Below the pieces are notes generated by a model. The model had not been told where the DNA came from, ran no database searches, and saw only the letters and a list, made by a program, of their open reading frames with translations. Both the position numbers and the translations under genes were made by a program. Source: Membranipora membranacea (lineage: Eukaryota; Bryozoa; Gymnolaemata; Cheilostomatida; Membraniporidae). Taken from it: DNA of 64,000 nt. Below are positions 3,661 through 37,272 of this stretch, piece after piece; the stretch's first letter is position 1; each line of letters starts with the position of its first letter. The stretch spans positions 11,963,387 to 12,027,386 of the forward strand of contig OU612069.1 of assembly GCA_914767715.1 (NCBI GenBank), in the 5' to 3' direction.

Positions 3661-4075
3661 CAGTGGCGTATATTAGCACTCACGGCCCACAGATTTTTGT
3701 GAATTGCTGAATAGCTCAGTGTGTAGAGCGTCTGCCTAAGAATCACTTTTAATAAGATTGTTGTGGGTTCGAATCCCATCGAGGTCAGTTTTTCTTCAAA
3801 TGGGTGCTTTATAACTGGAGCATTTTTACCGTAATCTTCTACTGCTATTGAGTTGTTTTCTGAAAGTACCCAATAGCTCAGTGAGCTATTGAAATACCTC
3901 TCTGATTGCACTATTTTGCTACCAATATGCAAAAATTTCCGTGGTGCGAGGGCGCTTAAGCGCCCCTCCCACACCCTCCCCGCCACGCCTACGGCGTGTG
4001 GATCGGGCTGTGCCCGATCATTATGCTCATCTCTAAAAAGACAGTGAGTGAAATTTTTTAGAATATACGCCCCTG
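3661..4075. mobile_element. hAT-type MITE with 8-bp target duplication
   Basis: The 415-bp element starts CAGTGGCGTATATT and ends AATATACGCCCCTG (read inward CAGGGGCGTATATT). It is flanked by the exact 8-bp duplication AATCAGAT at 3653-3660 and 4076-4083. Inside is a tRNA-like promoter (TAGCTCAGTGTGTAGAGC and GGTTCGAATCC), so a SINE may have been captured. The ends and 8-bp duplication are diagnostic of the hAT superfamily. No transposase is encoded. Confidence 0.85.
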
Positions 4076-4659: not shown

Positions 4660-7600
4660 TTATTCGATATTTAGTAGTGCAGCATAGTCATCCTTCTGGC
4701 GCTGATCTTCCTCTGAACGGATCGCACATATCCCACCATCATTCCATCTACCATATTGTGCACTGTAGTGCAGCTCGCTGTAAGCTATCTTCAGGTCTTC
4801 TGTGACAAAAAAAAACATCAGTATTATTCCAATTTCTTTCACACACCATGGTGAGACCTGGACCTATTTAAAAACCATTATTATTATCGTTAGTGTTATT
4901 GTTATTTTTTATCATTATCATCACATATGCTTTGTTTTTGCCTTCAACATCATCCTGAGACGTTCTCTCTGATATGCAGAAAATAGTATTATTAAAATCA
5001 CAAGGATAATAATTATAAATTAACAGTAATGTGCGTAAAAGGGGCCATTTATCCACAGTGTGTGTTATAACCAGTGCAAAACCGCCATTATATTCAGAGT
5101 AAGCCAACAATCAATACTGGTCACACACTGACAACCTAGCCTGGGCAGGCTGTCGGGGGTGGATGGGTGGGAGAGGGGGGGCAGCCTTGCCGGTAAATCC
5201 GTTGTGACCTCTTCAAGGTCACGACATGGACCTGCCTATCATTTTAATAAATTCAGATATACGATATATACTATAACAAACACAAATATTTTTGTTAGTT
5301 TGACCACGAACTAGTCCTTGGTATGAATTTTTGATTCTTATTCCATGTGATTCCCTGTTCATTTGGCATGTCATTATGTTTGTAAAACTACTACTTACTC
5401 AGGCTCAGCTAGTAGAGACTGGCTGGGGCGAAGGAGATTTATTTAAATTCAGAATTGTGATCCACAGACATCAACACACAGACATCTATTTAGTCTATTA
5501 GTCATGTTGTGATCACATGGTCTGTAGATCATAGAATAAAATCGGACAACTCTTATTCTAATCCGAATTCACAACTATTGCAACTTATTTCGAGTTGTCC
5601 TCTCTTTCCAAATGGATTCACAAAGGCTGTCCCCCCCCCCCTTCCCACCCACCCCTGACAACCCCTAGGAAGAATATCAAACTTGGGTCCTGCAACCTGT
5701 GCCTTTGGTGTATTCACTGAACAATACACAAAGTGTGTTATAGTCCAAGTCCCAGTAAATGTAACAACTTTTGTGAGAAACAATTTATGGAAAGCTACTG
5801 TTTGAACTCAGCACCAAATCGCAGCATTATCCATATTATGTTATGTTAATTTGTACATTTATGAATCATTTGCCGGAACAATGATAATATTTCAATGCTG
5901 ACTTTATTTCAAACTAATGAGTATTGTATTGAATTAATATTCTGAGGGAAGAAACTATCCGACTCAGATTGAGGACGAGGGCTAGGCAAGGACATATCGC
6001 ACCTTTTTTGTTGATGATTGCTGCCAAGGATATCCAGTCATCTAAAGAGAATGCCCCAATCTTTATTCTTCCTTCATTTTGTTTCATCAACTGTGCGAGT
6101 TTGTATGTGTAATTAATATTTTCTTTTAGGTTTCCAGAGCTACAATCAAGTCTCTCGCAGTCACAGCTTGTCCGGAACACTTTGTATAGCGAAGCAGTCT
6201 TGATATTTAGTACCATCTTTACTTTGTTATCATCATCAGCATCATACAAGTTATCCAAGTCAATCAGCTGGTCAACACAGGTTGGAGTAGGGGAGTTCGT
6301 CTGAAAAGATCATTTGTTATAGCCATAGAAATCGGTGAGAAAATAACTCTGTAGCACCAAAAGTTGGATGCTTCATAATTTTGACATAGGTTACTGTCTA
6401 ACCATCTCATTCATTTTCGCAAGATAAACGTGAATGATGACAAATGGTTTCATAAAGTGCTAAATTAAATGCAAAATAATGTTTAAAAAAGGTTGACCCA
6501 CTTATATAGTCTACTCACCATGTATATGTTGAAGGTTATTGGGCCACAGTTCCCTTTTAAGGTGTTTCTCAATGATTTTATCATTGCCCCTTCGGCATCC
6601 TCTTTAAAACATTGGACTTTGGATGTCTGCAAGCATTTCATCACCACCAGATAGGATCTCTCTTTGTCTTGAATCTTTGAGGCACCATGCTGGCCAGATA
6701 TCAGAAAGGTGCTGAATAGGCTGTAACTCCTAAATGGATCTACTGCAATAAAAATGCAGTGTCTGCGATTTATACTTGGTTGAACACATTTAGAAGCCTA
6801 TAAACATCAAATGGTTTTGACATTAAGATTATGTAAGTATGCTTTAATTTTGAAGAAAATGTTTATAATCTTCGAGCCAATAAGCTCTAGTTGTTTTGTA
6901 CTAAATTGACAAGTTATATTTACAGCCATCTTTGCTTTGCAGGTCAATCTCACGTACGTATGAGATGCTTGGTGTTTGAGAGAGAAAAAAACTGTTCTTC
7001 TGGTATGCAATGGTATGACTAGCAATGGTGATGGTATTTGAAAATGGCTGATACTGATTCTTAATGTAGAGTGATCAGATTCCTTACCTTTATCTACTAT
7101 GGATATCACACTATCCTCTGATCTTCCTGATTTATTTACAGCATAAACCCTGACCTCATCGGGATGCTCATCTTCTGCGTAATTTATTTCTATAGGTGCC
7201 TTTGTGATGGATTCACTTGTTTTATGTTCATCCAAGTCTCCTCCGCACTTCCTATGCTCCACTATGTAATATTCAGGCTGTCCTTTCCAATCACTGTCAC
7301 AGGGTTCCCAAGTTACTCTCAACTTGTAGTTTGGACACCATGAGTTAGCATCACAAATGGAAGTGACATCAGTTGGTGGACCAGGGCGTTCTGCAATAAT
7401 ATATCAAAAAGAGCATTATTGTTCATACAATACTCACGATTTCCCCAAGACAGAAAAGAATGTTATCTGGCAAATTGTGTCTGGTTTGGCTTGTATAATA
7501 ACTCACTACCAAATTCCAGCATATTTCCAAGATTTTTGCAAGAAAGATTTGAGTATGACTTTCTGCTAAACGCCTTGCATGTATCGGCAATACATTTTTT

Positions 7601-10231
7601 GTACTTTTAAATATTGGGGCTATGTTATCACAACACAAAAATGCATATGCTGACTTGTATAGGGTGTCATTAAGCCAGAGAGAATCGGACGAATCAAGGA
7701 GTAGTACTCTGTAGCATTTAATGAAGTGAGTGTACAACTCCTAAAAATATAGCAGGCTTGCAGGTGAGAAGTATTTGGCATTAACCAACCCTTGTTGATG
7801 GTTTTGAATAATTTTTCTTGAGTTGATAAGTAATCCTTCCATTTTTAAGATTGTTAAGAGCAGCTATTTTAGTTTTATATCTATCGCTCTTGTTTGCTTC
7901 GTATCCATTCACCTGTAGGTTTCCTGCATCCCAGTCGTTATAGAGTCCAACATGCTCGCCAGCAAGTACTGCATAGAACTTAAGTATTTTGCCTTATTTA
8001 TTTGGAGCAAGCCCCATGATAGCAGAGATTATTATCTAGCCATTGGTAATAGTCACAGGGTATGGATATATCCTTACTCTGTGTAATAGTGAAGAACGTT
8101 ATAATCAAAATCACAAACTCACTACTCAATGCTCAACTATACATACTATACTTACTGTCAAAATAACACTTTTCATCTTCCTTCCATATCAGGTGTGGTA
8201 AAGCATTCCAGTCTCTCAGCTGCAACTTATCTTCTTCAGAGCGACAACACTTCTGGTCATGAAGTGACAGAGGTACACCAGGTTTAGCCTCAGCTTCATA
8301 TTGAGGTTGGCCATACTCAACATCAGGACATCCCTCTTCTAAATTAACATCATGTTTTCAATAGTTATGATAACATGTGAACTCGATATGTCTTTAAACA
8401 TTAATACAATTCAAAATTAATACTTTTCACAAACTTGATGGTCTGATTTTCTTTCTCTTTTTGTTTTGACACTGTATGGAAAATCTTTCGAGGTGAATGA
8501 TATACTTGCCAATAAAAAGAAACAAAAAAATTATTTTGCTGACATTCTGTTAGGAGTTATCTGTAGTAAAAGTATGTTTGTATACTAGGAATCAGCCATA
8601 ACAACCAGAAGCGTGGTTCATATGAAATTTGCTGAAATGGCCAATCAGTTACAACACAAAGGCTAAGGATAAAATACCACTCGTTAAACGTCAAACCTTC
8701 AAAATTCAGTTCTAAATTCAGTGGAAGATTTATATTTACATCCAAAGTGAAGAAAAACATAGACAATGCAAAGTTAAACCACTCACCATCTAAATCCTGA
8801 CAGTCATTAATGGCGGAGCTCAACTTCTGCCAGTCCTCAAAAGATGAGAATGGTCTTATGTATATTTTTTTCTTTCTTTTTTTGTTGATTATGAGCTCTT
8901 TCGTACTCTCAGTGCACGGTTTATAATCGTGTTTCCTCTTTTTATTTGTTTTGTTGAACTCAGAACGTTCAATGCAGCTGACACGATGTGCATTAAACAA
9001 TCCGGCATAATTGAGCTTTACTTTGACATCAACTCCTACACTTTTCTTGAATTCTATGAGCTCGGAAACACAACCTTCACACGGAGAATAGCTGTGTGAA
9101 AAGATAGAACCATGCAAAACTTCAATCTATTTAAATGGCAGGATCACACGCCACATCCAAAATTAATTAAATAGTTGAAGGGAACATTACCACTCTGAGT
9201 AGTCAGGTGCTAGCAAAATATTGAGCTCCGCTGTTTTTTTTTATCAACGTTATCATCTTAGTGTTCCAATTTTGTAAAGAGGGTTATGAATGAGTTTGAA
9301 ATGTCAATGGCTATCCCCAAAGAACATGACTTCACCTTCTAGCATCCTACTTCTTGCTCAGAGTGTCCAGAGGATCAAGATTTTGACCACTTACAGAAAA
9401 CAGTTGGATAACAAATTTTCCATCTTTTTGCATCTGCTTGCTTTTGATTTTCCTCTCAATCTTTTTGATCATTATAACCTCAGCATGATCTCCGCCGCCT
9501 CCTACGTTTTCAAACATTCTTGTCAAAATTGTTGATCCAGGATTTCCCGTTTTTTCTCTGTACAAGTGTGCTAGAATTGTACAACCCCCCTGTACAAAGC
9601 CATGCAGACCTGATCTGAGGAAACTGTTGAATACTCTTTCTTTCTTTCCATCTTCGGCGAGAAAGGCATCAACTGGAAAGGTAAAACATAAATACAGTTA
9701 TAAATGAAGAGAACTTTGTACTGCACAGCTGTAGCTTGAAGACCTAGTTTGAGGCTGCTATTTTTTATCACATCTTATTGTCCATATTTTATTCTATCAT
9801 GTGGCATATTCCAGCTTTAGAATCTAAATATTGTGGAAGCTATGGCCTCTCAAACTTCCAAGCTGTTTTGGTTTGGGCGCTTAATGCTCACTTAGATGCA
9901 CCTCTCTACCACTTAATGTCATCATACTTCAGGGGCACAAATCTGATCCATCCATCAGTGAAAAAATACCGTCTTCCCAAGCTAAATATAAAATTGAAAT
10001 CCTAAGTGAGCCGATTCCGATATGGATTATTTACAAATAATATGTTTTTAGGCAATTTTTCAGCATTCTAGCGGTGGCAGTGCCTCCCTGCATACCACTA
10101 CAGGCCTGATTTTTATATCTCACTCTAGCAAATGTGTTGGCTCTGATCGGTTGGGTTCACTTTACCCAACCAATCAGAGCCAACACATTGGCTATCGCAG
10201 ACGTACCTTCACTGGTCTCCTTCCTTTCCAT
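4660..10231 (-). CDS. AID/APOBEC-like cytidine deaminase, two domains with central FNIII
   Basis: Eight minus-strand exons: 10231-10207, 9672-9395, 9091-8787, 8338-8156, 7390-7088, 6742-6519, 6300-6003 and 4799-4660. The product is about 585-595 residues. Order: short N-terminus, deaminase domain 1 (HAE near residue 71, then SPCEGC), linker with RSEED, FNIII, deaminase-like domain 2 (DAE, PTPTC), second RSEED linker. Zinc deaminases of this family convert cytosine to uracil in nucleic acid. No signal peptide or membrane segment was seen. Phases agree at every junction except exon 2 to exon 3, which is off by one base. The donor of exon 7 (GTGCGA) is weak; reading through it would give a stop at 5914. 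The start is uncertain: the ATG at 10231 fits, but the frame is open upstream. AATAAA overlaps the stop codon. The family call is from motifs and flanking strands; no search was run. Confidence 0.72.
6003..6742 (-). other. Deaminase-like domain 2 (zinc ligands lost)
   Basis: Encoded by exons 6742-6519 and 6300-6003, with the intron at the same place as in domain 1, just before the Cys motif. Matching landmarks are VDPF against VDAF, FLISGQHG against FLRSGLHG, EDAEGAMIKSL against GDHAEVIMIKK, SPTPTCVDQL against SPCEGCVSEL, KVKMVLN against KVKLNY, and IKIGAFSLDDW against IYIRPFSSFEDW. The zinc His is Asp and the first zinc Cys is Thr, so catalysis is unlikely. The fold may serve in binding or regulation. 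Confidence 0.7.
7088..7390 (-). other. Fibronectin type III domain exon
   Basis: One exon, phase 1 at both ends, encodes a whole FNIII fold: PGPPTDV start, core VTWEP tryptophan, YYIVEHR strand, and VRVYAVNKSGRSE, the classic F/G strand pattern. Symmetric 1-1 phase is typical of shuffled FNIII modules. Four cysteines (ICD, WCP, EPC, RKC) are more than usual. FNIII domains are mostly extracellular, so its place between two deaminase domains is unexpected. Confidence 0.8.
8787..9672 (-). other. Deaminase domain 1 (motifs intact)
   Basis: Encoded by exons 9672-9395 and 9091-8787. The layout matches AID/APOBEC: a strand pair (CTILAHLYRE, then GSTILTRMFENV), the helix with HAE, about 30 residues, a strand (FVIQLFS), SPCEGC, and a strand (VDVKVKLNYAGLF). 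A lysine-rich insert follows, then a last strand ending in F plus DW (IYIRPFSSFEDW). His and the two Cys would bind zinc; Glu would shuttle the proton. The lysine-rich insert (KKRK, KKRKKK) could bind nucleic acid or act as a nuclear signal. Confidence 0.75.
10131..10189. repeat. 26-bp inverted repeat hairpin
   Basis: Arms 10131-10156 and 10164-10189 are complementary over 26 bp with one mismatch around a 7-base loop. Half of the same sequence (CCAATCACAGCCAACACATTGG) recurs near 51380. It lies between exons 1 and 2 of the deaminase gene, about 20 bases downstream of the exon 1 donor. Confidence 0.8.
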
Positions 10232-17800: not shown

Positions 17801-19358
17801 CTAAAATCATGATATTTATAGTGCACAGGAGAGGTAGGGGAGCTCATTGTCACATTTATAACCCTAAACTTGCAGAGGAAATATATAACAATAATGGATT
17901 TGTTGGCCAAAATGCTGGGTGTGAGTTTTGCATCATATTGAGCCTCTTACCTCAAGCAATGATTCTTCCAAATTTTAATTCATGTTTCAAGAATTTTTTA
18001 GTATCTGAGTTGAATGTGCAGATTTTTTGCACCGTGTTGGTTACAAGTGCTTAATCTGAATTATCTATCTTTAATATTCAACCTATCTGCAAGGATCAAT
18101 AACGTAAACTTAGTCCAAGGACAATACTACAAGTTGTGGGCCTGTAGTATCAATTGACTACATGGAACCCGTCTCCCTCATATCACATGCAATACTGATT
18201 GGTTTATATTGCTCTGCAGCATTTCCTAGGCGAGACTTCTCATCGAACCTCCCTCTCATAATCATATTGAACTTACTGGTGGTGATTTCCTCAGGCGGTT
18301 CCTCTTTAGGAGCGAGATGCTGAGGAGATTGGTGGACAGCTGGCCGTGCGGAAGGTGCAGGATGGTCTGAGCCGGTCACTGGGGGACGACTTCCAGTGCC
18401 TACAGTATGAAAAACAGATGAAGGTGTAACTGATTGTGGACAGCAAAATAATCATACATTGAGGTATCACATGTTTCAGGTAAAGCGTAAGTCAGAATTT
18501 ACTGAAATTTCCAAAGGTATAGCAATAGTTTGCCCTATGTGCAATATTAACATAGTTAATTTTAATGTATGCTAGTTTCACTGCATGAAGTATGTTTACT
18601 CCATGTGAATTAAATAGCAAAGAATAGCTGAAGTCTAGGAGCTGTTGGGTGAAGTATTCGGTGGTGTTTAGTGCTGTGCGAGTTATGATAGTGTATACCG
18701 AATCCTAGGATTCCCAGCAGAAAGCTTTCATCGAATCAATCGCTGTTTCTCCTTGATTTAATAGCACCATGTGCAACTCCTAGGTTACTAAAATGTCTAG
18801 GTGGTACATTTGGCAAGTGACACACACACAGGTCATATGACCCTGTGACTGTGCAGTGCATAGGTTATGTGACCCTGAGCCTGAGTGCTGGACAAAGGTC
18901 ATGTGACCCCAAGTGCTAGACTTAGGCATGTGACCCTGAGTGATTCTTTTCCAGTCAAATCTATGCAAAGTTGAGTTCCAACTCCTCATCTCAGCTAAGG
19001 TCCATAAATGAAACTTAACATAACATAGTGAAAGTTATTGATGGAAATATGTGCAAGTGATCAAGATGTAAACCAGAATTTTAATGTGAAGAAAGAATAT
19101 AATGTCTATGTGTGCGTGCTACATTTGGAAGTGATCATGTGATACCAATAAAAGCGAGCAACAGGAAGCGCAATTACCTTCATGATCGTGATCAATCTCA
19201 TCATCGTCAGCAAAACAAGAAAAAATATTTACAGCATTGTCACCAAAAAACTTATCTGCATACATAGGAGAATGCTGATAGTTTTCAAAATCGGACGTAC
19301 CTCCCCCACCGCCCAGCTTAGACCGCTTCAGGTGTTTTTGAGCATTGTTCCTCGGCAT
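11828..19358 (-). CDS. Unrecognised N-glycosylated membrane protein, 389 residues
   Basis: Eight exons: 19358-19178, 18399-18277, 17483-17308, 16456-16340, 16021-15842, 14478-14332, 12530-12429 and 11971-11828. All phases agree and the total is 1170 nt including TGA. Residues 1-60 are basic, then glycine-rich, then acidic; 61-101 are proline-rich. About 102-160 is cysteine-rich with NGT and NYT sequons; a third sequon (NVT) is near 176. Two membrane segments follow (about 192-215 and 229-255), then a basic C-terminal region of about 130 residues with CSGKLKLYFIYY. There is no cleavable signal, and the sequons before the first membrane segment suggest an N-terminus outside the cytosol. I do not recognise the family. 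The N-terminus is shared with the left-edge gene, so the two are a local duplicate pair flanking the deaminase. Exon 5 has a doubled splice donor and exon 7 has an upstream partial copy. Confidence 0.72.
12190..12395 (-). mobile_element. tRNA-derived SINE (copy 2)
   Basis: Minus-strand copy of the SINE at 2834: head GATGGCTCAGTTGGTCAGAG, B box, then the body with CCTGCCTGCAAACAGAG and TTGGCGC. It sits in the intron between the last two exons of the membrane-protein gene. Confidence 0.8.
12650..12694 (-). pseudogene. Partial duplicate of exon 7 with early stop
   Basis: After a good acceptor (TTGAAATTACAG), the first 30 nt repeat exon 7 (12530-12429) with only two differences, giving KRVNTLTKKF. 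The sequence then diverges to SSVF and a TGA. If used it would end the membrane protein at about residue 322 instead of 389. It could be an alternative last exon or a dead duplicate. Confidence 0.6.
12761..12790. repeat. GATC / GAGC simple repeat
   Basis: Short runs of GATC and then GAGC tetranucleotides, within the long intron of the membrane-protein gene. Confidence 0.7.
12813..12879. repeat. 17-bp inverted repeat
   Basis: Arms 12813-12829 and 12863-12879 (ACTATAAAAGTTGTGAG and its complement) are perfect. The inner part has a second pairing, GGTTGCT with AGCAACC. It is probably the remains of a small MITE. Confidence 0.75.
12880..14331. other. Intron of membrane-protein gene, low content
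   Basis: I see no exon here. It contains a TATCATG(TATC) short repeat near 13770 and a cluster of five GCATTGTGGG-like motifs at 14150-14300, partly in tandem. Confidence 0.4.
14536..14730. mobile_element. Long-TIR MITE, 9-bp-duplication family (copy 1)
   Basis: Related to copies at 15096, 15600, 30944 and 47163. The arms share ATCATGTGTATCTCTGATCG on the left and the complement of GATCAGAGATATACATG on the right. The ends are worn here. Confidence 0.65.
15096..15291. mobile_element. Long-TIR MITE (copy 2) with 9-bp target duplication
   Basis: The 196-bp element is flanked by exact 9-bp repeats CATCAGACA at 15087-15095 and 15292-15300. The ends are CATACTGATGG and, read inward from the right, CACACTGACATGAG. 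A 9-bp duplication with long inverted repeats resembles Mutator-like elements. Confidence 0.8.
15600..15790. mobile_element. Long-TIR MITE (copy 3)
   Basis: Left arm CTCTGACATCGAGACTACAC, right end CGTCATCAGTGTG. It lies about 25 bases beyond the second splice donor of exon 5 of the membrane-protein gene. Confidence 0.7.
15811..15846 (-). promoter_or_regulatory. Tandemly duplicated 5' splice site
   Basis: On the minus strand the exon end and donor GCTAT/GTAAGTGTGAGA occur twice, 23 bases apart. The first donor (GT at 15841-15840) keeps phase 0 into the next exon; the second (15818-15817) would shift the frame by two. Confidence 0.8.
16724..16826. mobile_element. Small MITE, CACCTAG ends
   Basis: Imperfect inverted repeats of about 30 bp: CACCTAG.CTAAGTGCTC.GACGGCTGCAAT and its complement. 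It lies in intron 3 of the membrane-protein gene. A fragment of similar sequence (TCTAAGTGCTCAGA) is near 57580. Confidence 0.75.
17090..17265 (-). repeat. Dispersed repeat shared with the FIP1 copy
   Basis: The reverse complement matches 61735-61905, with landmarks CCAATCAAAGATG.GAAA, CAGCAACCATACATAAAT and TTCAG.GTCAGATATGTTCC. It runs up to about 40 bases from an exon. Class unknown. Confidence 0.65.
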
Positions 19359-21372
19359 CTTGACGACGTTGCGCTAAACGTTGTGCTTGACGACGTTGCG
19401 CTAAGCGTTGTGCTCGACGCAAGTAGCCCTGAAGAATGGCTGATAGATTAACTGCTGAAATTTTCACCTTGTCGGATATCCGAGTGTAAGCTGCTGTAAT
19501 ATAAACAAGTTTATTATATCCCCAGAGATAGGGTTGTGATGGACTTTAGGTATATGATGCTAACAAATATTATCTCAAGGGAGACTCCTTTCAGACAGGA
19601 ATAGTTTCCAACTCACCAACTGAAATGTTGAGTAAGCTTTTGATGGCAGCTAACAATATGCTGACTATTTGTGGTCACTGAACGCATAGATAAAGTACAA
19701 CGCTTGTGTCTCATTTGAACTGGGGGAGCTCCCAGGTGTCCTAGCGTCTATTGTCCATTCGGCATTCAGCAGTGACCCGTCTGGATTGTTTTGTGTTATA
19801 GATAGCGCAGCCGTGTCTGTTTAAAAGAGATCCAGGTTCCCTTGAGGGCAGTTGTGATGCTCTAAGTTAGAAATAGCCACTAGACCAATCAATCCCTGTT
19901 TACGTAGCCTTCTTAGACAAATTAAGTTTTGTTGGCTCGCTGAAGGTAGAAACCCTAACGGTACCGTTCACTAGATAGCAGCTATGTATAAACCGCTGCC
20001 AGCTCCAGCAGCTTTATAAATTTAACCTGATGAGTTATTGATTTCAGCAAAATCAGCAGCGCTTGTCATCGTAATGTTTTAATTATCTTCACACCTTTTA
20101 ATGAAAGAGTTTCACACTTTTAGCGTGTTTGCAGCATTTTGCTATGATGAGTGACACACGGGTATTATGAAACGCCACCACTGCAATAGAGTTGCCAATT
20201 AAAGAGCTAAGTGTTACAGAATTGAAATGAGTTGATCCCCTGCACGCAAGTTTAAAGAAATGTGAGGAAGTTCAAAACAGCATATTCTGCATATTTATTT
20301 CCATAACTTACCCGGTAAGAGTTCGTTCTTGTGAGCAGTCGAACTAGCAGAATATCATACTGTGATAGGGCGGCACTAAAGAGTATACGATCTTTCGACA
20401 CAAAATAACTAGAGGTTTATTAGTGAATTATCATGATGATGTAATGATAACCTCAGTCTGACAGAATTAATGAAGATCACTTTTAGATCCATCGTTTGAT
20501 GTCCATAATTAGATGATAGGTAGAATAAAGGTATAAAAATCTTGTGGGTATCAGCTTTCTCATAATACTTTTTGAATGCTCATCTTCTGCCACCAATAAT
20601 AGTGCAGGAACTAAAAACTTACTACTGAAAAAAACAGCTACTGGATGTTACCACGATAGAGGGTAGTGCTCCACCCCAGGTGAATTGTCTCCTTTCAGTT
20701 CAGGGGCAAACAACTCATATTGACTCCAAGTTCTGTGCTTAAGCTGTTGTTGCACTAATAGATTTACAATTACTTAACATAAAATTCATATCTCTACTAC
20801 TATCAAGATTTTTCAATATATTCTTTTTACTTGATAAAGTAAACAGTTTTTAGAGTGCGATAATTTCTTTCTGACTCTTCAAGAAGTCGCAGCCGCCACT
20901 TCCGAGAGTCATTTGTTGTTCTTTATCGCCATGAACTTCACCAGACAATAACATTACACAAAAAGTTCAACAAATTTGTTGGAGCAGGATGAATAATATT
21001 ATATAATCTTTGTGTATAGGTCAGCAATCACAGCCAGGCATCATAAATCAATAGATTTAATATATATGATTATCACACATTTAATCTATTCAATATTCAA
21101 TATTCAATATTCATCTTTGGCACAATAAAAAAAAAAACCGGTATATGACTTTACCACAGCTGAGTGTAGAAAATAAAATAGTATTGAAAACAGGATGCAA
21201 AGCATTCTTATTAAGACTCTGTTGAATTTTCAGATAAAGGCTCTTAGCCATTTTTGTAGTTTTTGAAAATTCCCTGATGAAAGGAATGAAATTACAAAAG
21301 AAAATGACATTGTTTTGTTGAGAACAATTTCAGAAACTGCCTCTAAAGTTTCCAAAATTCCTTAATCCCTAC
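19359..21372. other. Intergenic region, no gene seen
   Basis: Lies between the membrane-protein start and the MTIF3 stop. It should hold the promoter of the former and the 3' UTR of the latter. Near the start a 21-nt unit (GACGACGTTGCGCTAA.CGTTGTGCT) is repeated about twice at 19360-19415. No exon or element with clear ends was seen elsewhere. Confidence 0.5.
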
Positions 21373-25635: not shown

Positions 25636-28600
25636 ATGGCTTCAGTAGAAGTTACCAGTATGCAGACTGGTGAACAGGAAAAGACAGATGGAGACGATGA
25701 AAGCTGGTTATATGGTGGTGAGTTCATCAATTATTTATTAGATTTGCACAAAACATCATTATTCTTAATTAAATTATGACTTGCTTGTTTGTACCAACTC
25801 CTTGCTTGTACTGCCTGTACTTGTAATGTAGGCCTAGGCAATTGATATTGTTGTTGTTCTATGAAATTGGTTGATGATCTTTCTGTATTCAATAATATCA
25901 CTAAATTGATAATAATAGCATCAGAAGTGGAATGGTCATCTTGTCATTGCTATATTTGAAATGGAGGGTGTGGGGTAGTTGGGAGAGAATGAACTTTTAC
26001 CTTTGTTTTGAACAAATTCACGAGCATTGATCTTGACAGGTAAGAGTTTGTAGACCTACCATAACCATCCAACGGTCCAATGGTGATTGAACTTTACTAC
26101 TCAGCAGAGTTACTCAATGTAGTTACAGTTTGGCTGTGGTGCCGTCAAGCAGTTTGGTTGGGGCTTACTTGCTCAGAGACGGACATACATCATACCAAAA
26201 AATGTTGATAGTTGTTTTTTCTCAATTTCACTCACAGAAAGTGATAAAGCAGCTAGTGTCGCTGATCCACAGCCTACAATCAGTGATGTGGAACCTAGTT
26301 CAGTGGCACCTGCTGAGATACCACCAACAGCTGTATCAGATGACACAGCCGCAGCTGAGGTAGATAACAGTGAGATAACTGATACTTCAGAAGCAGGAGT
26401 TGTCAGCACCAGTAAAGGTGAGCAGTCCTAAAGCGTAGAGAGTGAAAAGTGGTTATAACTAGATAACGGATGGGAAATGCTTGTAATGAGACTTCAAATG
26501 TTGCACCTGGAATGTGAGCCTTGGCCTATTCCGATATGATTATCAAAAGGTTGTGTTAGAGAAACAATGGCTTGCGATCGACAACACTTGCAAGTGAATT
26601 TACAACGCCAATTGTCTTATGTCAATGAGGCTGTCTTGCTTTGGTGATGCCCTCTGCAAATGAATATCCAGATACCATCAACACATTGACAAAACTGAAC
26701 AAACATATCTCGGCAGATGCAGATATTTACAGAAATCAGGATAACAAATGTTATCTATAATCTATATTAGGCTATTTTTATATTTTGTACATTTTCTGTT
26801 CTCATTGTCTGTAACAATTTGATCTTACTTAAGAAGAAAAATTAATATTATCATACCTATGTATTTCATATGGAGGGAGTACAGTTTCTTCTTTAATTCA
26901 ATTTTTCTATTTTTGCTTGCACTTGCACATTCAGAAGATCATCATTTTAATGATGAAGATTGCTGTCAATAATTGTTCAAAAGAAAATATATATTTTATA
27001 TTATTATTCTTTTTTTTTATCTCAGATATGGAGAGCGGTCAGATTGAGGATGAAGACAGCGATGAAGATGATGATATTCAGATCACAATAGGAGATATTA
27101 AAACTGGTGGTGTCAATTTACAGTAAGTGGAGACAACTGCTGGTAGTAGTCTCAGTGAGTGCGAGTACCCAAGGTCAAGCGTAATCCAATTTGCCTGTAT
27201 TTTAGATTGCCCCTTCACTAGAATGTAAATGACCTTAATGTGGCAAAATTGGATCTAACTTGATCCAGAGTACCCTGAATGAATAAATATTTAATTTTAG
27301 GGTAACTTAATGTTAGCTAGCACTTTATTTCACTAGCTAAGATGGGAGTCTATATGAAGTTATGAGGTGAAGGAAAAGTTACATGGCTATAATTATGGCG
27401 ATTCAAAGCCTGTGCGAAATGGCAGACTTTTCATCCTTCAAATACATTACTCCTACTAGATTTGAAGTCGGAGCATAAATATGGGTTCTTTTTGGGTATT
27501 TGTCAAAAGCCACATCACTTTAAACCTTTTGAACACATTGTTGCAGGCTCATGATTCTCTGACGTATTACATTGTAGTGGCAGACCTTTCTCCAATTTAG
27601 TCTTTGTACCCTAGAAGAGTTCAGTATTTAGAAAAGTTGAGTTTGATAGATTCTTACTGATCACTTGTGATAATTTATACATATAAATAAGATAGTATCC
27701 AACTCCTAACCTTGGAAGAACCAGCTCAAAACGTGAATATTGTACTTGAGTCATAGTATGGTCTCTCAAGTATAAATAAATTATATTGTGTATTATGTTA
27801 ATATTTTATTCATTATTTAGACAGCAGCCTAGGTTTGCCGGACCTGGTACGGCTGCCAGACCCCGCCCCGCTGTCACAGTGAAGACTGCCTCGGCTAAGA
27901 CTCTGGATATAGAGGCAGAAGGAGAGATACATGGCGTCAGTACTTTTGAGTATGATATAGACTCTCTGAGACAGGAGGAGATGCCATGGAGGAAACCGGG
28001 TAGGTGAAATGGATGTATTTAGCCACACCGTTAATTTCTTACTGTACATGGAGCATGATATTCTTTATTTAGCCTCTGTGTCCTCAAAAAAGGATTAAGA
28101 CCTGCTCACCTGATGTCAAATTCTCTATACAGTGCAGTTCACTTAATTCCAACCTCTGGGGACCACAAAAATTTGAATTAAGTGACACTAGAATGCATTG
28201 AGATCTGGCTGTAAGGACCAATTTTCCTTATCTGAATTTAAATGTGTTTTGAATTATAAAGTTTGAATCAACCAGCTTACACTGCATAGGGATCTGATTT
28301 GGTCAGAGTCCTGATGAGAACTGAATAACTGAGGTTGATTGTTGATTTAGTCTGCCTCACAATAAGTCAATCTAAGATTAAAATTGGCCGGTTGGCTCAG
28401 GCTACATGACCTAATTCTTATATAGTGTTGTTTGTTAGAATGAGGACACACACCTATGTATCATCCAAATAGCCATTTTTCGTGTTGTAAATGTTTATTT
28501 TAATTTTTTAACTGGAGCTGCTCCAGCTAGAAAGGCTGGGTAGAGATATTTTTGCATCAAAGTGTCAGTTCTACTAGGCCATGTTTGGTATGGTTTTAAA

Positions 28601-31600
28601 GATCTCTGTCTGAAAAGTCATTAGGGCATATGAAATGAAACAGCCTGTGGACTAAATTGCATCAAAACCATAGCAATTTATTGCATATTTCTCTCATGCT
28701 ATTAATGGTTATATTTCTCACTTTATCCCCACAGGTGCTGATATTACTGATTATTTTAACTACGGATTCACCGAGGACACATGGAAGGCCTACCAGCAGC
28801 GACAGCATGTGCTGAGGAGTCAAGGTCAACCTTATCATAGTAATAATACATATGGAGGAGGTCAAGGTCACCATCATCACTATCATCAGCAACACAACGC
28901 TCAACACCAAATAGGGGTAAGTACGGCAAAACAACGCTCAACACCAAATAGGGGTAAGTACAACAACACAAATGCTCAACACAGCAGTAAGTATTAGCTA
29001 GTTTGAAGATAACCCAATGTGTGTGACCTTTTCCAAATTGGGTCTAGCGTTTGTGAGGTTAATTGTAAAGTATTTATGTAAATGTTAGCTAGCCAAAGAT
29101 CTCGCTATTCAAGCATATTTTGTGGTTAAAAGGTCCTAGGGTACTGACTGATTGTCTGGCAGTTGGATGCCATCTAACCTTAGAGGGGAGAGGTGAGCAA
29201 ATCTGACGTTTTGAGACTAGAAATTTACAGAGTTGTTGCAAAATTAAGCTAGTCCCACAAAATTTTGGTGCATTAATAATTTTTTTTTCAAATCTTTGTA
29301 GTTGATTAGGTTTTAAGCGACTATCTAAGCTAAGTCATGTCATTCCGCGTTTTTGTCATCTCGGTTTGTCTAATTAAGACAACTAGCAGAAAATTACACT
29401 TTTGTACTTTACTTTTCAGTCCCCAAATTTTAGTGTCAGTAACCATAGTTTTGCTATTCTCTGTTTTAGTCCCTAGCCCAGGGATATGATACAGGTACAG
29501 CTCCTCAGATGCCGATGGCAGCAAAATATACACCTGTAGGTGGTAATGTTAACATTCTACGGCAGCCACCTCCTTCAAGTATGTCTACTGTTACTGTACG
29601 ACCCCAACAACCAGCACGTGAGTAAAAAAAATTTTTTCTATTCTGCAAATCTGGTTGTTTTAAAAACTATTATAGCCATTGCATTGCATCAAGGGTCAGC
29701 TCTAAACCTGCAATTGATTTCAATACGACAGACCTTTGTCAAGATTTTTCCATTTTAATTTGTTTGTTTGTCTTCTCTGTTTTGAGGGAAGGAAAATCCT
29801 GTTAAATGAACACATTGAATTATTGTAAGCTAAATCACGGGAAAAAGACTCCTTGCTTTAATCCAATTTAGTTTTGCCATGGGTCAGAGATTATAAAGAG
29901 TATTTAAAAAGACTGTAGTATGTTATTGTCTACCTTGTGAAACTGAAAAGGCTGACCACTTAATTGAGCATTTAAAATTGGTGGATAGCTGCCTTTAATT
30001 TAAATGAATTGAATTGCATATTTATTTGTACGATCAGTTTTTTTCGCCGTCTTGATAAATTAGTTCCTAGAGAGAGCTACAAAATTTGGGGAATAATCTT
30101 CCCTTGCCACATGTGGAAGACAATTCCACGCATTTCATAGCTCCCTCTCGTAAAGCAGGGAGTAAAGTAAATTTAATTGTTTTACCATCTTCCACAGCTC
30201 AAGTTATTATCCGTACTCCAGTCGGTACTTCTTCCAATGTGACGATAATGAAACCTCCTCCTGTCGCAAACACACCTACTAGCGGTGTGGGCCTCATCAA
30301 TCAACAACCGCAGAGTCAGAGGTAATACCATAAACACATAAATTTGTATGATTTTTATTATATATATTATATACATGTATTTATATGACTATTGGCTTAA
30401 CTTAATGCTGGTGTTGTGTCCGGCAATGATCGCTCAAAGTTGAATATTTGAATTCCAAATTGTATATAAGTTCTGCAGAGGAGTCGGAAAATTAAGTCCT
30501 TTGAACTCTCAAAAGTATATTTATTCCGCTGGTTGTCAGATTTATTTCTATGCTGTTTGCCCGCATGAATAAGTAAAGGGTGGAAATTTCTGAATGCAGG
30601 CAAACTGGATCTCATTTAACTTGTTAAAGTTAAAAGTCAGCATGGGTTTGATCAGCAATCCATCAACAAGTACCTCAGACAGGTGCTTGGGTAATCAGTT
30701 GTTATGGCTAATTATCAAAGAAAACTGCGTAAGACAATGAAAGACCCACAAAGTATCATGATTTTGAAGCGCTGTGTATTGTATTTATTCTGACATGAAT
30801 ATACTATAAATTATGTCATTTTTCGATTTTAGCCCTGCCCTTCAGTCAGCTCCGAGTGTAGTACAAGCTCCACCCCCTGTAGCTTACCCATCTGTATCAG
30901 CTCCTCCACCTATGCACTACGCCCCTCCAACCCAGGTAAGATACCCACTGACATCTAGACTACACTAGTTACATGTGTATCTCTGACGGTTAGCGTGAAT
31001 TTGGTATGAGTACCTAACATGATCCAGCCCCAATTAATCAACTTGGCCATGGGTTGTCACTCCGAATTCCTTATTATGGTACTATGTCTAATTGAATTAG
31101 TTCCCTCTCTATCGATCATAGATATACATGCGATAGTATATCATGTCACCTGTGTGGGTAAGATATGACCAATAATCTACTTGCTATACATCTTCAGAAA
31201 AATCAGACAGCTCTTGTTTTGGAAGTATCTTCAAATTTAATTTACAATAATTGTTATCCATTATGAAACAACATTGTAGCGTTTGGTATATACATTTTGC
31301 TGTTGTAATAAGAGCCATTAAATCGCCTGCAATCCTGAGAAAAGCTAGGTAAGTCGAGTATGTGCTAGAATTTCAATTATGAAACTCATTTTCCCCCACG
31401 CTTAAGTTTGTGGATGGCTTGCCAATCCATTCATCTTTATTTGAAATTGGTCAGGATAACCATATCACCCCTTTCTCAATTTTAGGTGCGACCCCCACAT
31501 GTAACCTACATGCCTCCCCCAAGAGTAGCCGCCCCTATGACACAACCTCGTGTCATGATGCAACCGCCACCTGTCAGAGTGATGGCACCTCCTGGCCACC

Positions 31601-34600
31601 AAGTACCTCCTCAAGGACCACCCAGGATGAATATGCCACCACCCGGCCAGCAACCTGTCAGAGGACCACCCCCAAGTAAGTGTAAACAACATGTGGTCTA
31701 TCGATAGCTTCCTTTGACTACATAATGATTGGCACTCTGCCTACATGATGGTATGATGGTTTACAACTAACATAGCTTTTTTTTTATACATGTAAACAGT
31801 TTATTGACATCAAATTACATATTGTGCGGTCAAGGAGTTCAAACTCATTGGTGCAATGTACTTCCAACTGTCCAGCAAAAAAATATCAACTGAAAAATAA
31901 GAAAAAATACTGTGAGGTTTTGAATCATTGCATGGGAACAAGATTCAATCAAATTCTGGTGAGCTTACCAAAATACTTGCACATCACTCACATATCAGTA
32001 TAAATTTTTTTACACTTTATTTGCTGTTCAGTGCTTAAACCACTGCTGCCACACAGCTAAATGTGTGCTTATAGAATTCTGTATAGCTCAAAACTTATAA
32101 AATGAGGCTGCAATCTCAGCATTGTCACCTAATGAGCAAATAATTTGCACAAACTGATCGTCAAAATTAGGGTATGAAATTAATTATCTACCGGCACGGG
32201 TGACGTAGTTACCGTCTTACTAGTGCATACTGTACACGTCATTAGCTGAGCAAAGATTTCATGCCCTGATTTTGAAGATCAGTTTGTGCAAATTATTTGC
32301 CCATTAGGTGACAATTATGAGATTTAAGTCTCAATTAATTATCTTGGAGCTATGCAGAATTCGATGAGTACAAATTTGCATGAGTGGCAGCAGTGACATC
32401 ATGCGACATCGAGATGAAGTTAACTAGTCATGGTTTGAAAATTTATGGTCAGGTTTTCCAAAAACTAAACTAAATAGTATTTATCACAATAATGGGACTA
32501 AGTTAATAGGGATCCACTACTCCAACAGTGCTGTAAAATTTCTGTTCATGTTTTAGATTTCACCGGCCCTCCACCAAATCGATTCGGTGGCCCTCCACCC
32601 AACTATGGTTTCAACGCTCCACCACGTCCCGGTTATGGCCCAGGATTCAGACCTGTAGGGCCACCTCCTTCTGCAAGAGCACCCCGCCCCGGACAAATGA
32701 GTGGACCTCCGCCAGACTGGTCTCCACCTCGCAGAACTGACGACCAAGACAGGTAATTTACAAATTAATTTAAATTAATTTAAGTAGTTACAGTAACCCA
32801 AAATGCATCACCCGATAAAGACTACACTGCAAGGATATTCCGACAATGCATCATACCACAATTCTGTAAAATCTCCGTATTCTTCTCTCTCGATCTTCCC
32901 AGATATAAGATAGAGTATTGTTGCTCAAAAATCATCTCTACGTTGTCTATATAAAAAATGGCTTGTCTAAGGTTGCAGAATTCAATCCATGTTGTGTGAC
33001 ATTCCCTGCCTGATTGTGGTTATGGACATCTAGACGAGTTTTACTAAACATGTTTATTCTCTACTCCTCTATATCTAATTCATTGAGTCTTCTAACAGCC
33101 ATAGTGATGATAGACATTCATATTTATCTATTTATATCCAGCCCGCCCAGACATCCGGCTTCTCCAGAGCACCCACCTGGAGAGACACCGCTCAGAGTTA
33201 GCCGCTCTCGATCTCGTGATAGAGACAGGAGGGATAAATCCGACAGAGAAAGAGATAGCAGGAGAGACGATAACAAAGATGACAGAGATGATAGGTGAGA
33301 TAGCTGAAGTGTATTTTATTGATTGACTGATTGATCGAAGCCATGTTCATTTCTAGCTGTCCTTTCTTGTCCCTTATGCCTTTATGTTTTCTATTTAAGA
33401 GTAGATGTCTGCAGAAAGAATTTTTGGGTGTCAAAAGCCTTTTTAGTTGTGTTCCTTCAAAGCTGCTTGTGGAACCTAGAAAGGGTTTTTTCCCAGGCAT
33501 CTCCTTCTTTAAATTCAATACAGTCAACCCTACCACCAATAGCTCTTCAAGATATTCTTAGGAAAAAACACTTTTGTAAATCACATAGCACCTCTAGTGA
33601 GCTGTAATTCTTCTCATATTTACAGCCAAATGCTTCAAAAAGTGAATTTATAATAATAATAATTTTTAATAATTACAGTGCTTCAAAGTTGTCTTCTCAT
33701 GTAAGACTTCATCTGGCAGGGCGGTTATAATGGGGTCACTGATGCTCAATGCACGTGGATGACAGATATTTTGCCGTATCCAATCCCTGAATCTGTTTTC
33801 ATTTTTGTTGCATCATAATCAACAAAGTTTATTCTGTAGATATGTTTGATTATATATTTATTTTTATTATATTAGGAGAGATGATAACAGGGGGGACAGA
33901 GATAGAAGACACAGAGACGATAGAAGAGACAGAGATAGAGAGAGTAGAGATGATAGATACAGCAGCAGGAAAAGGTATGTCGCATTATAACAAACAACCT
34001 GATCGGAGTAGTAGTTGGCTCAGTTGGTTAGAGCGCCGTTCCTTGAGCATACAAATGTTGATGGTCATTAGTTCGAATCCCACTGCAGTCCATCGTCTAC
34101 TGGGTTTGGTTGGCTTCCAGGTGAGTTCTAACCTGCCTGCAAACAGAAAGCAACATTGGCACAAATATTGCGGCTTCGCCACTAAGGCAACTCATATTCT
34201 CAACTTGATTTTTTAATCCAGCAATAAAGGAGTCGCATGTGAAAGTCCATTATTTCATGCAGGCTTAAAAAAAGCCAAATTTGAGGCTAGCTTAGAATTA
34301 CTCATCCCCTTTACTTAATCTATACTCCTACCACAGCTAGCTAAAACTGAGTCCTAGCTAACAATAAGTCATTCTCTAACTAGCTGAAGTAAGCTCTAGC
34401 TAACATTTACTCCTTAAAGATACACAGAGAAGTATTCTCAGCAGTTTTGGTTAAAGCTTTCGAAAATTTTTCTCAACAAATGATTTCACCTCTTTTCTGT
34501 TTTTTAAAGTTAACTCCATCTGTAAGTGTAGGCTCAATCTCACTTTATTGGCTATATAGTCAAATATTGCAATAGTCTGTTTTTGTACAACTGTGCCATA

Positions 34601-37272
34601 AGTAAAAAGCAATAATCATTAGGCCGGAGACATGACAGAAGGTCTGTGACAGCTCTCCTCATCATTGTAATTCAAAATACCTCCCTCTATCCTTGTCAAT
34701 AATTCAAGTCTTTGAAGCAGTTTTCAACATTAAAATTTAGTTCTGCCTAGAATGAGCCAGCCAGAGCCATTAACTAGCATCCTGTTACTTCCCTTGACAT
34801 ACCTAAACACCACTGGGCCATATGAAAACATATTTGAATGCACATATGCGGGGGGGGGGGGGGGAGGAAACAATGACTTATTGCCCAATATGGCCAGGGT
34901 TCCTTTTATCCCCCTTATGCAGTTTGCTTCCTGAAGTTGGTTTTCATGATCCAGATGTTATGCATGTACGATACCAAGTGTGTCATGGTACTACACTTTT
35001 TCTGAGAGACAACAATACCCTGGGTCAAGTTGGATGATTTATGCCTGTAATTGGAGCTGTTCTCCTTTTATACCAGCACCAATGAATAATCGGTTGCATC
35101 ATAAACTTATAAATATGTAAATTCATATATACATATTATTTGTATTCCATTTTTATTCTGGAGAAGATTAAGTCCTTAGCTATATGTTTATGGCAGCACA
35201 GATGAGCATTTAGTATGTTTGCTAGCACTGTGGAAATCTTTGTGCCATATAGACATAAAGTGTTAATCTAGTTGAGATGATTAATATCTACATTCCGCTT
35301 ATCTTCAATGAACTGATGAAGATTTGTAGTCCAAATTATTTATCATCATGTTACTGAGGCACTCTTAGAATCATGTGACAATAACTTGCTTTTGATTTCT
35401 CCAATTCATCTTTTGACCAGCAAATTCACTTACATTGGACAGTTATCAACAAGGTGTTTAAACATGACACCTACACTATGGTTCCATGCTTCGAATAATA
35501 CAAATACAAATACCATAATACACATTCGGTTTTGTCATGCTCACTTTGCGTTAATTAAAGTGTGCCAGGTTGCCATTATTGCACTGACATGGCCCAGGCT
35601 ATGTTTTCTGTTTGGCTTCTATTTCATCGAAACCAAACAAAATATTAGAGGAAAGTGGTGATGAGGCCTACATGCGCAATAGCTTTTCCAATGCAGCAGC
35701 TAGTCGAGGTACAAGGCCACATTGCCATACAAGATGCAGCAATAGAAATCAATTAAATCACTACGAAGAAAGTCTAAACCTCATAGCCAATGTAGGATGA
35801 GCTAGGTGATACAATAGTGCCTAATATGATTCTGCTGGGTGGAAAATATTTTTGAGGAAAAGTATTTATACATCATTCATCAACATTAAATTGCCACATG
35901 CATCCAACATGGACAGTGGACATGCTGTCAATTCTGTACCCACTTTAAAAAAATGAAAATGGTTTTGATCTGTCCAATATATCTATGACTGTCCAGGAAT
36001 AATGTCAGCTCACGCAAAGGCTTACTATGAAATAACCTTTGAATGTAAAAAACAGGTCATATATGCTGTTTTTGAACTAATTATTGTCGCAAGTAGTGCA
36101 CTGAATTTTGTAATAACTCTCCCATGAGGAAAACCTGTCACACCAGGCCACAATCTTATGCCAGGGAAAAAATATGCCTTCCTGAGATGGTTAAATTTCC
36201 CCAACTTTAAATCAATCATTATGCATGTGTTTTGCAACAGCGTTGTGAGCTAGACTATGAACAATAAGCTGTTGTTGTTAGGGGGAATTAAACAGGGTAA
36301 ATAGAAAAGTACCAGATCAAGATGTGATTCACTAGGGGAGAAAATCCTGTTTCCGTGTGCAGAAATGAGTTCTGTTTTGCATTTCTCATTAAACTAAACT
36401 TCAAAACTTTTTTCAGTTTTTCCGCTTATCAACAACTTCCTTATCCATTCCTGGCATATTTAGCCGCTCGCTTAGATTATCGAGTGCCTTTTTTCTGTCT
36501 GGATATTCAAAGCCACAATTTGCTGGCAACAACCATACATCTTTTAGCTTCATGATTTGCCATTTGTATATCACAGCTAATATTAACAGCCATTGATAGG
36601 CTTGGATTGGCAGGCAATAAGGTCCCCCAATTTTGTTGAAGACTTTATTCATAGTGTGGACATTGTGCACTAGATATAAATTGATACTTTTTTGTTTATT
36701 TCAGGAGACATAGGGAGGAAGATGAAGATTACGAATATCGGAGCAGTACAAAGTCTGAGCGATCCGATAAAGATTACAAAGACAAAGAGCGAGAGAAGGA
36801 CCGCAGCGACCGATCCACGCATAAGAAGAGTAAACGATCACGAAGAGACTATGAGGAAGAAGAGGGTGGAGGGGGAGAGAAATCCTCATCGTCACGCTCA
36901 AGCAGACGCGACCATGATAGAGATCGTGGCGGTGAAAGAGATGAGCGCGAATATGAAGAGGAATCGTCCTCCAGAGGCAGAAGAGACTATGCTGATGAGG
37001 AAAGGTCAAGTAGGCGGGACTATGCTGAGGAGGAAAGGTCAAGTAGGCGGGACTATGCTGATGAAGAGAAGTCTAGTAGTAGGCGGGGCTATGAGGATGA
37101 AAGGTCAAGTAGGCGGGAATATGACGATGAAACGTCTTCAAGGAGCAGAAGAGGCGCTGAGTATTATGATGATCGTGATAGAGACAGGGAGCGGGAGGAG
37201 AGATCTAGTCGACGAGATTATGACGATAGAGAGAAAGATGACAAAGACAATCGAGAAAGTGAAAGAGTGTAA
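25636..37272 (+). CDS. FIP1L1: Pre-mRNA 3'-end-processing factor FIP1
   Basis: Thirteen exons: 25636-25717, 26238-26417, 27026-27122, 27821-27999, 28735-28916, 29470-29617, 30198-30321, 30833-30935, 31486-31675, 32557-32752, 33142-33294, 33876-33974 and 36705-37272. Phases agree; 766 residues. FIP1 is a subunit of the cleavage and polyadenylation specificity factor; it binds U-rich RNA and poly(A) polymerase in the nucleus. Landmarks: DDESWLYG near the start, an acidic stretch ending [12 protein letters not shown] (about 102-114), and the Fip1 motif [19 protein letters not shown] (about 181-199). A Pro/Met/Gln-rich region runs from about 240 to 500, and an Arg/Asp/Glu/Ser-rich tail from about 545 to the end. 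It is longer than human FIP1L1 (about 594), mainly in the Pro-rich part and the tail. Exon 5 has three successive donors. A partial tandem copy lies at 61060-64000. Confidence 0.93.
28130..28284. mobile_element. MITE, CAGTG ends (copy 2)
   Basis: CAGTGCAGTTCACTTAATTC on the left, CCAGCTTACACTG on the right; TA on the left, CA on the right (probably a mutated TA). It lies in FIP1 intron 4. Confidence 0.75.
28894..28992 (+). promoter_or_regulatory. Three tandem 5' splice sites of FIP1 exon 5
   Basis: A 31-bp identical block spanning the end of exon 5 and its donor is repeated at a 37-bp period (28894 and 28931). A third, worn copy follows. GTAAGT donors stand at 28917, 28954 and 28987. Only the first keeps the frame; the other two add 37 or 70 nt and lead to a TGA in exon 6. 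Confidence 0.85.
30944..31156. mobile_element. Long-TIR MITE (copy 4) beside FIP1 exon 8 donor
   Basis: Flanked by the exact 9-bp repeat GGTAAGATA at 30935-30943 and 31157-31165. The left copy is the splice donor of exon 8 itself (last exon base plus GTAAGATA). The paralogous FIP1 copy lacks this element and reads straight on, which supports insertion. Confidence 0.85.
32033..32395. mobile_element. Foldback MITE, ACTGCTGCCAC ends (copy 1)
   Basis: Imperfect inverted repeats of about 150 bp. The left begins CTTAAACCACTGCTGCCAC and the right ends GTGGCAGCAGTG; the inner pairing includes GTCACCTAATG and CATTAGGTGAC. Copy 2 is at 45559-45852. It lies in FIP1 intron 9 and is absent from the duplicated intron at 62521-62922. 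Confidence 0.8.
34005..34205 (+). mobile_element. tRNA-derived SINE (copy 3)
   Basis: Head TTGGCTCAGTTGGTTAGAGC and B box AGTTCGAATCCC, then the body with CCTGCCTGCAAACAGAAAG. It lies in FIP1 intron 12. Confidence 0.8.
34206..36704. other. Rest of FIP1 intron 12, no exon seen
   Basis: About 2.5 kb between exons 12 and 13. It contains an AGCTAGC-rich dispersed repeat at about 34290-34420, related to stretches near 14750, 27300 and 37900, and a poly-G run at 34850. I see no supported exon. Confidence 0.45.
36985..37146 (+). repeat. Coding tandem repeat in FIP1 tail
   Basis: About five copies of an 11-residue unit, consensus [11 protein letters not shown], with lengths of 10 to 12 residues. 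The first two copies differ by one base in 33. The unit alternates acidic residues with RS dipeptides. Confidence 0.85.

Follow-up and report, generated by a model that had tools for sequence, protein, structure and literature searches.

A putative bryozoan gene pairing two AID/APOBEC-like deaminase domains around a central fibronectin type III exon

Introduction

In vertebrates, the AID/APOBEC cytidine deaminases diversify antibodies and take part in antiviral defence; how these enzymes are aimed has long been a question. The double-domain APOBEC3 proteins keep both zinc motifs, and often one of the two halves is catalytic. The main survey of the family across the metazoa reportedly appeared in PNAS in 2018. 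APOBEC3B, D, F and G of vertebrates are described as carrying two deaminase domains in each chain (PMC5956068).

A double-domain invertebrate AID/APOBEC is already known. This is LaAIDL1 of the brachiopod Lingula anatina, which is given as having two tandem AID/APOBEC domains, whose active sites contain H81/E83 and H298/E300, and as acting on DNA in E. coli assays (PMC5956068). The same source describes invertebrate AID/APOBECs as deaminating DNA and as inducible by pathogen challenge, and gives the family motif as H[AVS]E-x(24-36)-PCxxC. Its AID/APOBEC-like SpAIDL1-9 of the sea urchin have numerous alleles, and in the reference genome frameshifts disrupt five of the nine loci.

Here we describe a locus of the bryozoan Membranipora membranacea at which two homologous AID/APOBEC-like modules lie on either side of a single fibronectin type III (FNIII) exon.

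Results

Gene structure

The window, which is the whole stretch of 64,000 nucleotides that was analysed, holds the candidate gene on its minus strand, running from 10231 to 4660. All eight exons that the earlier note had placed here were recovered. Their lengths are 25, 278, 305 or 307, 183, 303, 224, 298 and 140 bases (exons 1-8 in order), and the outline protein of ~585 residues is arranged as a first deaminase domain (D1), the FNIII exon and a second domain (D2). The borders are GT/AG with matching phases at all junctions bar that of exons 2 and 3. As calculated, the 1/2, 3/4, 4/5, 5/6 and 7/8 junctions are in phase 1, and the 6/7 junction is in phase 0.

At the 5′ end the inferred exon 1 (10207..10231) comprises the start codon, reads MERKETSE and ends in phase 1; it is open, has a GT donor, and its phase fits exon 2. 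Another first exon further upstream is possible. Intron 1 contains an inverted repeat at 10126-10194, with 31-base arms that are 94% complementary and 7 bases apart. Exon 2 (9395..9672) encodes the N-terminal half of D1 with the HAE motif, and ends at 9395 before a strong donor, GTAAGT; a weak alternative donor in frame, GTTTTC, follows 9402. Exon 3 (8787..9093) carries SPCEGC and the C-terminal half of D1, and has its expected start at 9093 (AGC TAT). It is followed by the first RSEED exon, exon 4 (8156..8338), which has phase 1 at both ends and is homologous to exon 8. The FNIII domain occupies a single exon, exon 5 (7088..7390), also with phase 1 at both ends and with no in-frame Met codon. 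Exon 6 (6519..6742) forms the N-terminal half of D2, with DAE instead of HAE, and exon 7 (6003..6300) its C-terminal half, with SPTPTC instead of SPCEGC. Exon 8 (4660..4799), the second RSEED exon, contains the stop codon, overlapped by an AATAAA.

Phase 1 thus bounds the first deaminase module on both sides, and the FNIII exon likewise, making them symmetric 1-1 units; the second module opens in phase 1 and runs to the stop codon. Units of this kind allow duplication or insertion without a break of the frame. An exon-sized open stretch is not evidence by itself: among 8450 AG/GT pairs lying 280-320 bases apart on the minus strand of the window, 16 leave the phase of exon 5 open. A search with a 582-residue query against a protein database (3908 candidates) gave no hit, and so no full-length relative.

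The exon 2/exon 3 border

In the window AC, not AG, precedes position 9093, and the nearest AG places the start of exon 3 at 9091. Combining the good donor GTAAGT (9395) with this good acceptor gives a product that is out of frame, at the catalytic motif. A scan of GT or GC donors between 9440 and 9321 and of acceptors down to 9061 returned 12 frame-keeping pairs. Three routes among them are plausible: through the weak donor GTTTTC, through an acceptor that lies 35 bases upstream of 9091 and would lengthen the product by 12 residues, or through the later donor GTAGGA. A start at 9093 in phase 0 would read FVIQLFS-SYSPCEGC.

The score of D1 against the Pfam family SNAD4 depends on the junction, being 40.0 bits for phase 0, 29.8 for the weak donor and 26.1 for the upstream acceptor, and among the junctions only phase 0 needs no gap to align with the phase-0 border of D2. 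The one database protein matched here (from 1236 candidates), P0001, comes from another, near-identical copy. It is identical to the window at 182 of 186 residues, including read-through of the intron, and differs at the exact acceptor codon, where it has Gln and the window has His. On these three grounds (the higher SNAD4 score, the gap-free alignment to D2 and the difference at the acceptor codon) the phase-0 junction is favoured as the original one. The Gln of P0001 may be encoded by CAG, which would give an acceptor, or by CAA, which would not.

It is rather unlikely that D1 is spliced by another in-frame route and that the window copy is fully functional. GTTTTC, the upstream acceptor and GTAGGA each hold the frame open, but the first two fall ~10 and ~14 bits below the phase-0 junction for SNAD4 and the gap-free border with D2 is obtained with that junction only. 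We give about the same low weight to the acceptor of exon 3 being a single-base sequencing or assembly error, such that a healthy gene looks broken; the P0001 copy differs from the window precisely at this codon, a difference that could equally be real allelic variation. From the sequences, the window haplotype is likely to be splice-defective at its catalytic exon, and another copy may be intact. With the frame problem at this border the window copy may yield no active enzyme.

Within exon 3 (8787-9093) P0001 also replaces the Arg of SCIERSEF by Cys and so reads SCIEC, which is nearer to the SCDCERLDC of D2. This hints at a possible cysteine-rich insert.

The putative catalytic half

D1 carries the HAE and SPCEGC motifs at AID/APOBEC spacing, as claimed previously; 31 residues separate HAE from PCEGC with the phase-0 junction and 28 with the weak donor, and both fit the published motif. 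When D1 was assembled by joining exons 2 and 3 at the codon border, it was matched by the Pfam families SNAD4 (E = 4.2e-8), NAD1 (4e-7) and APOBEC3 (1e-6), and passed six Pfam cut-offs (SNAD4, NAD1, APOBEC4, APOBEC3, APOBEC2 and APOBEC_N), missing that of NAD2. The phase-0 junction brought seven AID/APOBEC families of Pfam above their cut-offs, with NAD1 at 39.3 bits and APOBEC_N at 32.9 next to the SNAD4 score given above. For the weak-donor version, the strictly in-frame product of the window, the sole clear pass was that of SNAD4, against a cut-off of 27, and the APOBEC4 score lay at its cut-off of 27.2. Exon 3 by itself matches APOBEC4 (1.1e-6).

A profile of D1 and D2 compared with the PDB sequences gave weak matches (best E = 0.025), and all 10 rows up to E = 10 were APOBEC3 or single-stranded DNA cytosine deaminases. 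Rebuilding the profile with the revised junction gave eight rows of eight of the same kind, slightly weaker (best E = 0.044). As a single sequence D1 found deaminases in four of seven PDB rows (best E = 0.38), and a phmmer search of PDB with the weak-donor version returned two unrelated rows and no deaminase. With single-sequence searches this weak, the case for family membership is carried by the Pfam profiles and the motif. These support the assignment of D1 as an AID/APOBEC-like deaminase domain with a complete zinc motif. The core of the domain is basic (36 K/R against 25 D/E, pI 9.4 in the weak-donor version).

The RSEED exon was found where the earlier note saw it, but its role as a linker is put in question by the profile alignments, in which it may form the C-terminal part of the deaminase domain. 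APOBEC_N aligns to D2 with 17.3 bits as far as profile position 136 of 170 without the exon, and with 20.0 bits as far as position 163 when it is included. No such gain is seen for D1, which scored 26.3 bits without its RSEED exon and 25.4 with it.

The second domain and duplication of the module

That two copies of one module surround the FNIII exon, also proposed previously, agrees with the alignment of the two domains. Their local alignment scores 128, where 500 shuffles averaged 33 (standard deviation 5.1) and reached at most 65, and they are 32% identical when aligned with MAFFT. The modules correspond in the position of their starts (VDAF and VDPF), of the inner intron and of the RSEED exon border. 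One direct repeat of two copies (28 bases, 75% alike) was found between the modules, at the donors of exons 3 and 6, together with two weak inverted pairs. No further copies of D1, D2 or the FNIII exon were present in the window; outside the exons tblastn gave only matches of E = 0.55 or worse.

In D2 the motif reads DAE, 27 residues and PTPTC, which departs from H[AVS]E-x(24-36)-PCxxC. Two of the zinc ligands, one His and one Cys, are gone, while the glutamate and the second cysteine are kept. With these ligands lost D2 is probably a homologous pseudo-catalytic domain and no active deaminase; given the loss of the motif, the reading of D2 as a second active enzyme was rejected. The description of the gene as a double deaminase is supported by the profile matches of D1 and the homology of D1 and D2, with the correction that the second domain lacks the zinc motif.

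The best Pfam match of D2 is APOBEC_N, with E = 7e-4 over most of the profile but under the curated cut-off. An unrelated viral family at E = 0.015 is at the level of noise, and exon 7 by itself matched no Pfam family. As controls, three shuffled versions of D2 and its reversed sequence found no AID/APOBEC family; one of the shuffles matched an unrelated family at E = 0.093. Chance resemblance was rejected on these controls and on a D1/D2 score above all 500 shuffles. The relationship of D2 to AID/APOBEC proteins rests mainly on its homology to D1.

The FNIII exon

The FNIII exon encodes 101 residues. It scores 19.5 bits with Pfam fn3, below the cut-off of 25 bits, and its PDB sequence matches were titin in seven rows of seven, two of these below 0.001 and the best at E = 9.2e-7 over residues 2-96; the titin stretches are presumably FNIII domains. 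Two AlphaFold2 models of the exon consist almost wholly of strand but are poor (mean pLDDT 55.9 and 54.5). Foldseek searches with them gave mostly FN3 domains among the best 50 of 718 and of 639 rows, none with E < 0.001. The domain is acidic (pI 4.9), resembling modules that bind proteins more than those that bind nucleic acids.

One match among 24 candidates, P0002 (141 residues), spans residues 23-100 of the domain; this N-terminally truncated FNIII scores 12.8 bits with Pfam fn3. P0001 and P0002 probably lie on one contig of 4184 bases, and P0002 could be a paralogue. The copies show 10 differences over 78 residues of the FNIII domain; exon 3 has 2 over 101 residues, and the read-through of the intron 5 over 145, the acceptor codon being one of the five. 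The first residue of each protein (Met in P0002 for Lys in the window, Met in P0001 for Leu) was left out of the count as a possible start codon. The excess in the FNIII domain has a Fisher p of 0.011 relative to the intron and of 0.005 relative to exon 3, for one pair of copies compared post hoc at the protein level. The excess is a lead towards diversifying selection on the domain and does not prove it.

The FNIII differences fall at residues 51-59, 72-77 and 86. A concentration in loops was considered and not borne out: each rough model places 7 of the 10 outside its strands, with six shared by both models, and chance would give as much about one time in five.

A bolder reading makes the central FNIII domain a fast-diversifying recognition module that changes faster between copies than the neighbouring intron and directs the catalytic and pseudo-catalytic halves towards a protein of a virus or retroelement; alleles that work and alleles broken at the splice site would coexist in the population. 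We regard this as unlikely.

A proposed single transcript

We infer that all eight exons belong to one transcript. Exon 4 ends at a strong donor, and exon 5 on the same strand has an acceptor and a phase-1 border. Having no in-frame Met, exon 5 needs an exon upstream. AATAAA-like motifs occur at ten places on the minus strand between 4000 and 10300, so that the AATAAA over the final stop is weak evidence. In the interval from exon 4 to exon 5 the minus strand carries an AATAAA at 8002 and an ATTAAA at 7722, as would suit two genes or transcripts, with exons 1-4 encoding a single-domain deaminase and exons 5-8 another product. We judge this very improbable, as exon 5 lacks a Met and is bounded at 5′ by an acceptor, exon 4 runs without a stop to its strong donor, the borders of exons 4 and 5 are both in phase 1, and the stop is carried by exon 8, the partner of exon 4.

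Decay of the locus is a reading that is unlikely but deserves some weight. The locus would then be one of a larger family, with a pseudogene in the window whose FNIII and D2 exons are relics under relaxed constraint. The good donor is left with an out-of-frame acceptor of exon 3 only, the zinc motif of D2 is broken, the FNIII copies differ at the 10 of 78 residues noted above, and the frameshifted sea urchin loci (five of nine; PMC5956068) offer a precedent. Against decay, the remaining exons are all open with intact borders, the other copy (P0001) differs at the border just at the acceptor codon, the FNIII frame stays open despite its changes, and exon 3 has changed at no more than 2 of its 101 residues.

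The earlier note's double AID/APOBEC-like protein with a central FNIII domain is supported by the profile matches, the homology of the modules and the phase-compatible exons; what the note did not anticipate is that D2 has a broken zinc motif and that in the window copy the splice site of exon 3 is defective or ambiguous.

Surroundings of the gene

The deaminase gene is flanked by two similar start exons on the minus strand, MANRNNARRHLKRTKLAGG (1802-2038) and MPRNNAQKHLKRSKLGGGG (19122-19373). Neither had a Pfam match, and they are likely to be start exons of one gene family. Two tRNA-like stretches recognized by eye on the plus strand (GGTTCGAATCC; 2845-2910 and 3705-3790), neither called by ARAGORN, are possibly tRNA-derived SINEs.

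On the plus strand a Fip1-like gene extends over 26100-37300, with a Pfam Fip1 match of 5.5e-21 on two joined exons near 27780-28994. Its extent, and the assignment to it of an RS/RD-rich low-complexity ORF (36685-37269), were judged by eye. Near-identical plus-strand ORFs occur at 31383-33295 and 62228-63633, with a 98-residue ORF at 31383 and 62228 and an RSRD tail at 33014 and 63334. These pairs suggest that the Fip1-like gene was partly duplicated or that the duplication is one of the assembly. An exon of an SLC6 sodium:neurotransmitter symporter is present at 41611-42033 on the plus strand (Pfam SNF, 1e-15). Scans of the window for tRNA and Rfam families gave nothing, the NCBIfam search one unrelated weak row, and a viral contig scan 164 pattern matches with none confirmed.

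Discussion

We favour, with moderate confidence, a single gene that encodes an intracellular AID/APOBEC cytidine deaminase with a catalytic D1, a pseudo-catalytic D2 and an FNIII adaptor, likely to serve in innate defence, the acceptor in the window copy being probably defective. D1 would be the zinc-dependent half, converting C to U in single-stranded DNA or RNA. D2 would have arisen by duplication of the whole three-exon module followed by loss of two of the three zinc ligands, and most likely serves in nucleic-acid binding or protein stabilisation, by analogy with pseudo-catalytic halves elsewhere. The FNIII domain is most likely a protein-binding adaptor that would bring the enzyme to its target or partner. 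The proposed intracellular location depends on exon 1 as predicted, whose start, MERKETSE, is by eye not hydrophobic. Intracellular FNIII adaptors exist, an example being ATF7IP in SETDB1 silencing as presented in PMC7706265. Judging from its relatives in the sea urchin and the brachiopod (PMC5956068), the enzyme is likely to protect against viruses or retroelements as part of innate defence.

If the proposal is true, this natural fusion of a deaminase with a binding domain is a testable case of built-in targeting, and the gene is a further example of a catalytic and pseudo-catalytic pair. If the splice-site difference is real, the copies offer a natural loss-of-function comparison inside one species.

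The combination of an FNIII domain with a deaminase had been thought undescribed. This fits the literature in so far as none of the papers listed seemed, from titles, opening lines of abstracts and term counts, to describe an AID/APOBEC with FNIII; that is not proof of absence, and the 2018 survey in PNAS might include one. The main text of PMC5956068 makes no mention of fibronectin. In LaAIDL1, as given there, the active sites are 217 residues apart, about one domain, which leaves no room for an FNIII domain or a comparable insert; here H71 and D414 (phase-0 model) are 343 residues apart. The second site also differs, being DAE/SPTPTC here and H298/E300 in LaAIDL1. SpAIDL1 and 4a are listed in that source as single-domain proteins of 193 and 194 residues, unlike the gene here.

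The clades SNAD4 and NAD1 provide the best Pfam matches of D1. SNADs are defined in PMC11004436 by a signal peptide, which by eye is not seen here with the inferred exon 1, and SNAD4 is reported there from sponges only; NAD1 is reported from vertebrates (PMC8201067). The top PDB sequence relatives of the D1 and D2 profile are chains of APOBEC3H, at the best E value of that search. APOBEC3H is a single-domain protein. The double-domain APOBEC3 proteins of vertebrates are not known to contain an FNIII domain, unlike the gene here.

ADAT2/ADAT3, from another deaminase family, consists of a catalytic and a pseudo-catalytic half in two chains. The amphioxus pair is treated in PMC10354150. The pairing of a catalytic with a pseudo-catalytic half in ADAT2/ADAT3 resembles that proposed for D1 and D2, the halves being separate chains there and parts of one predicted protein here.
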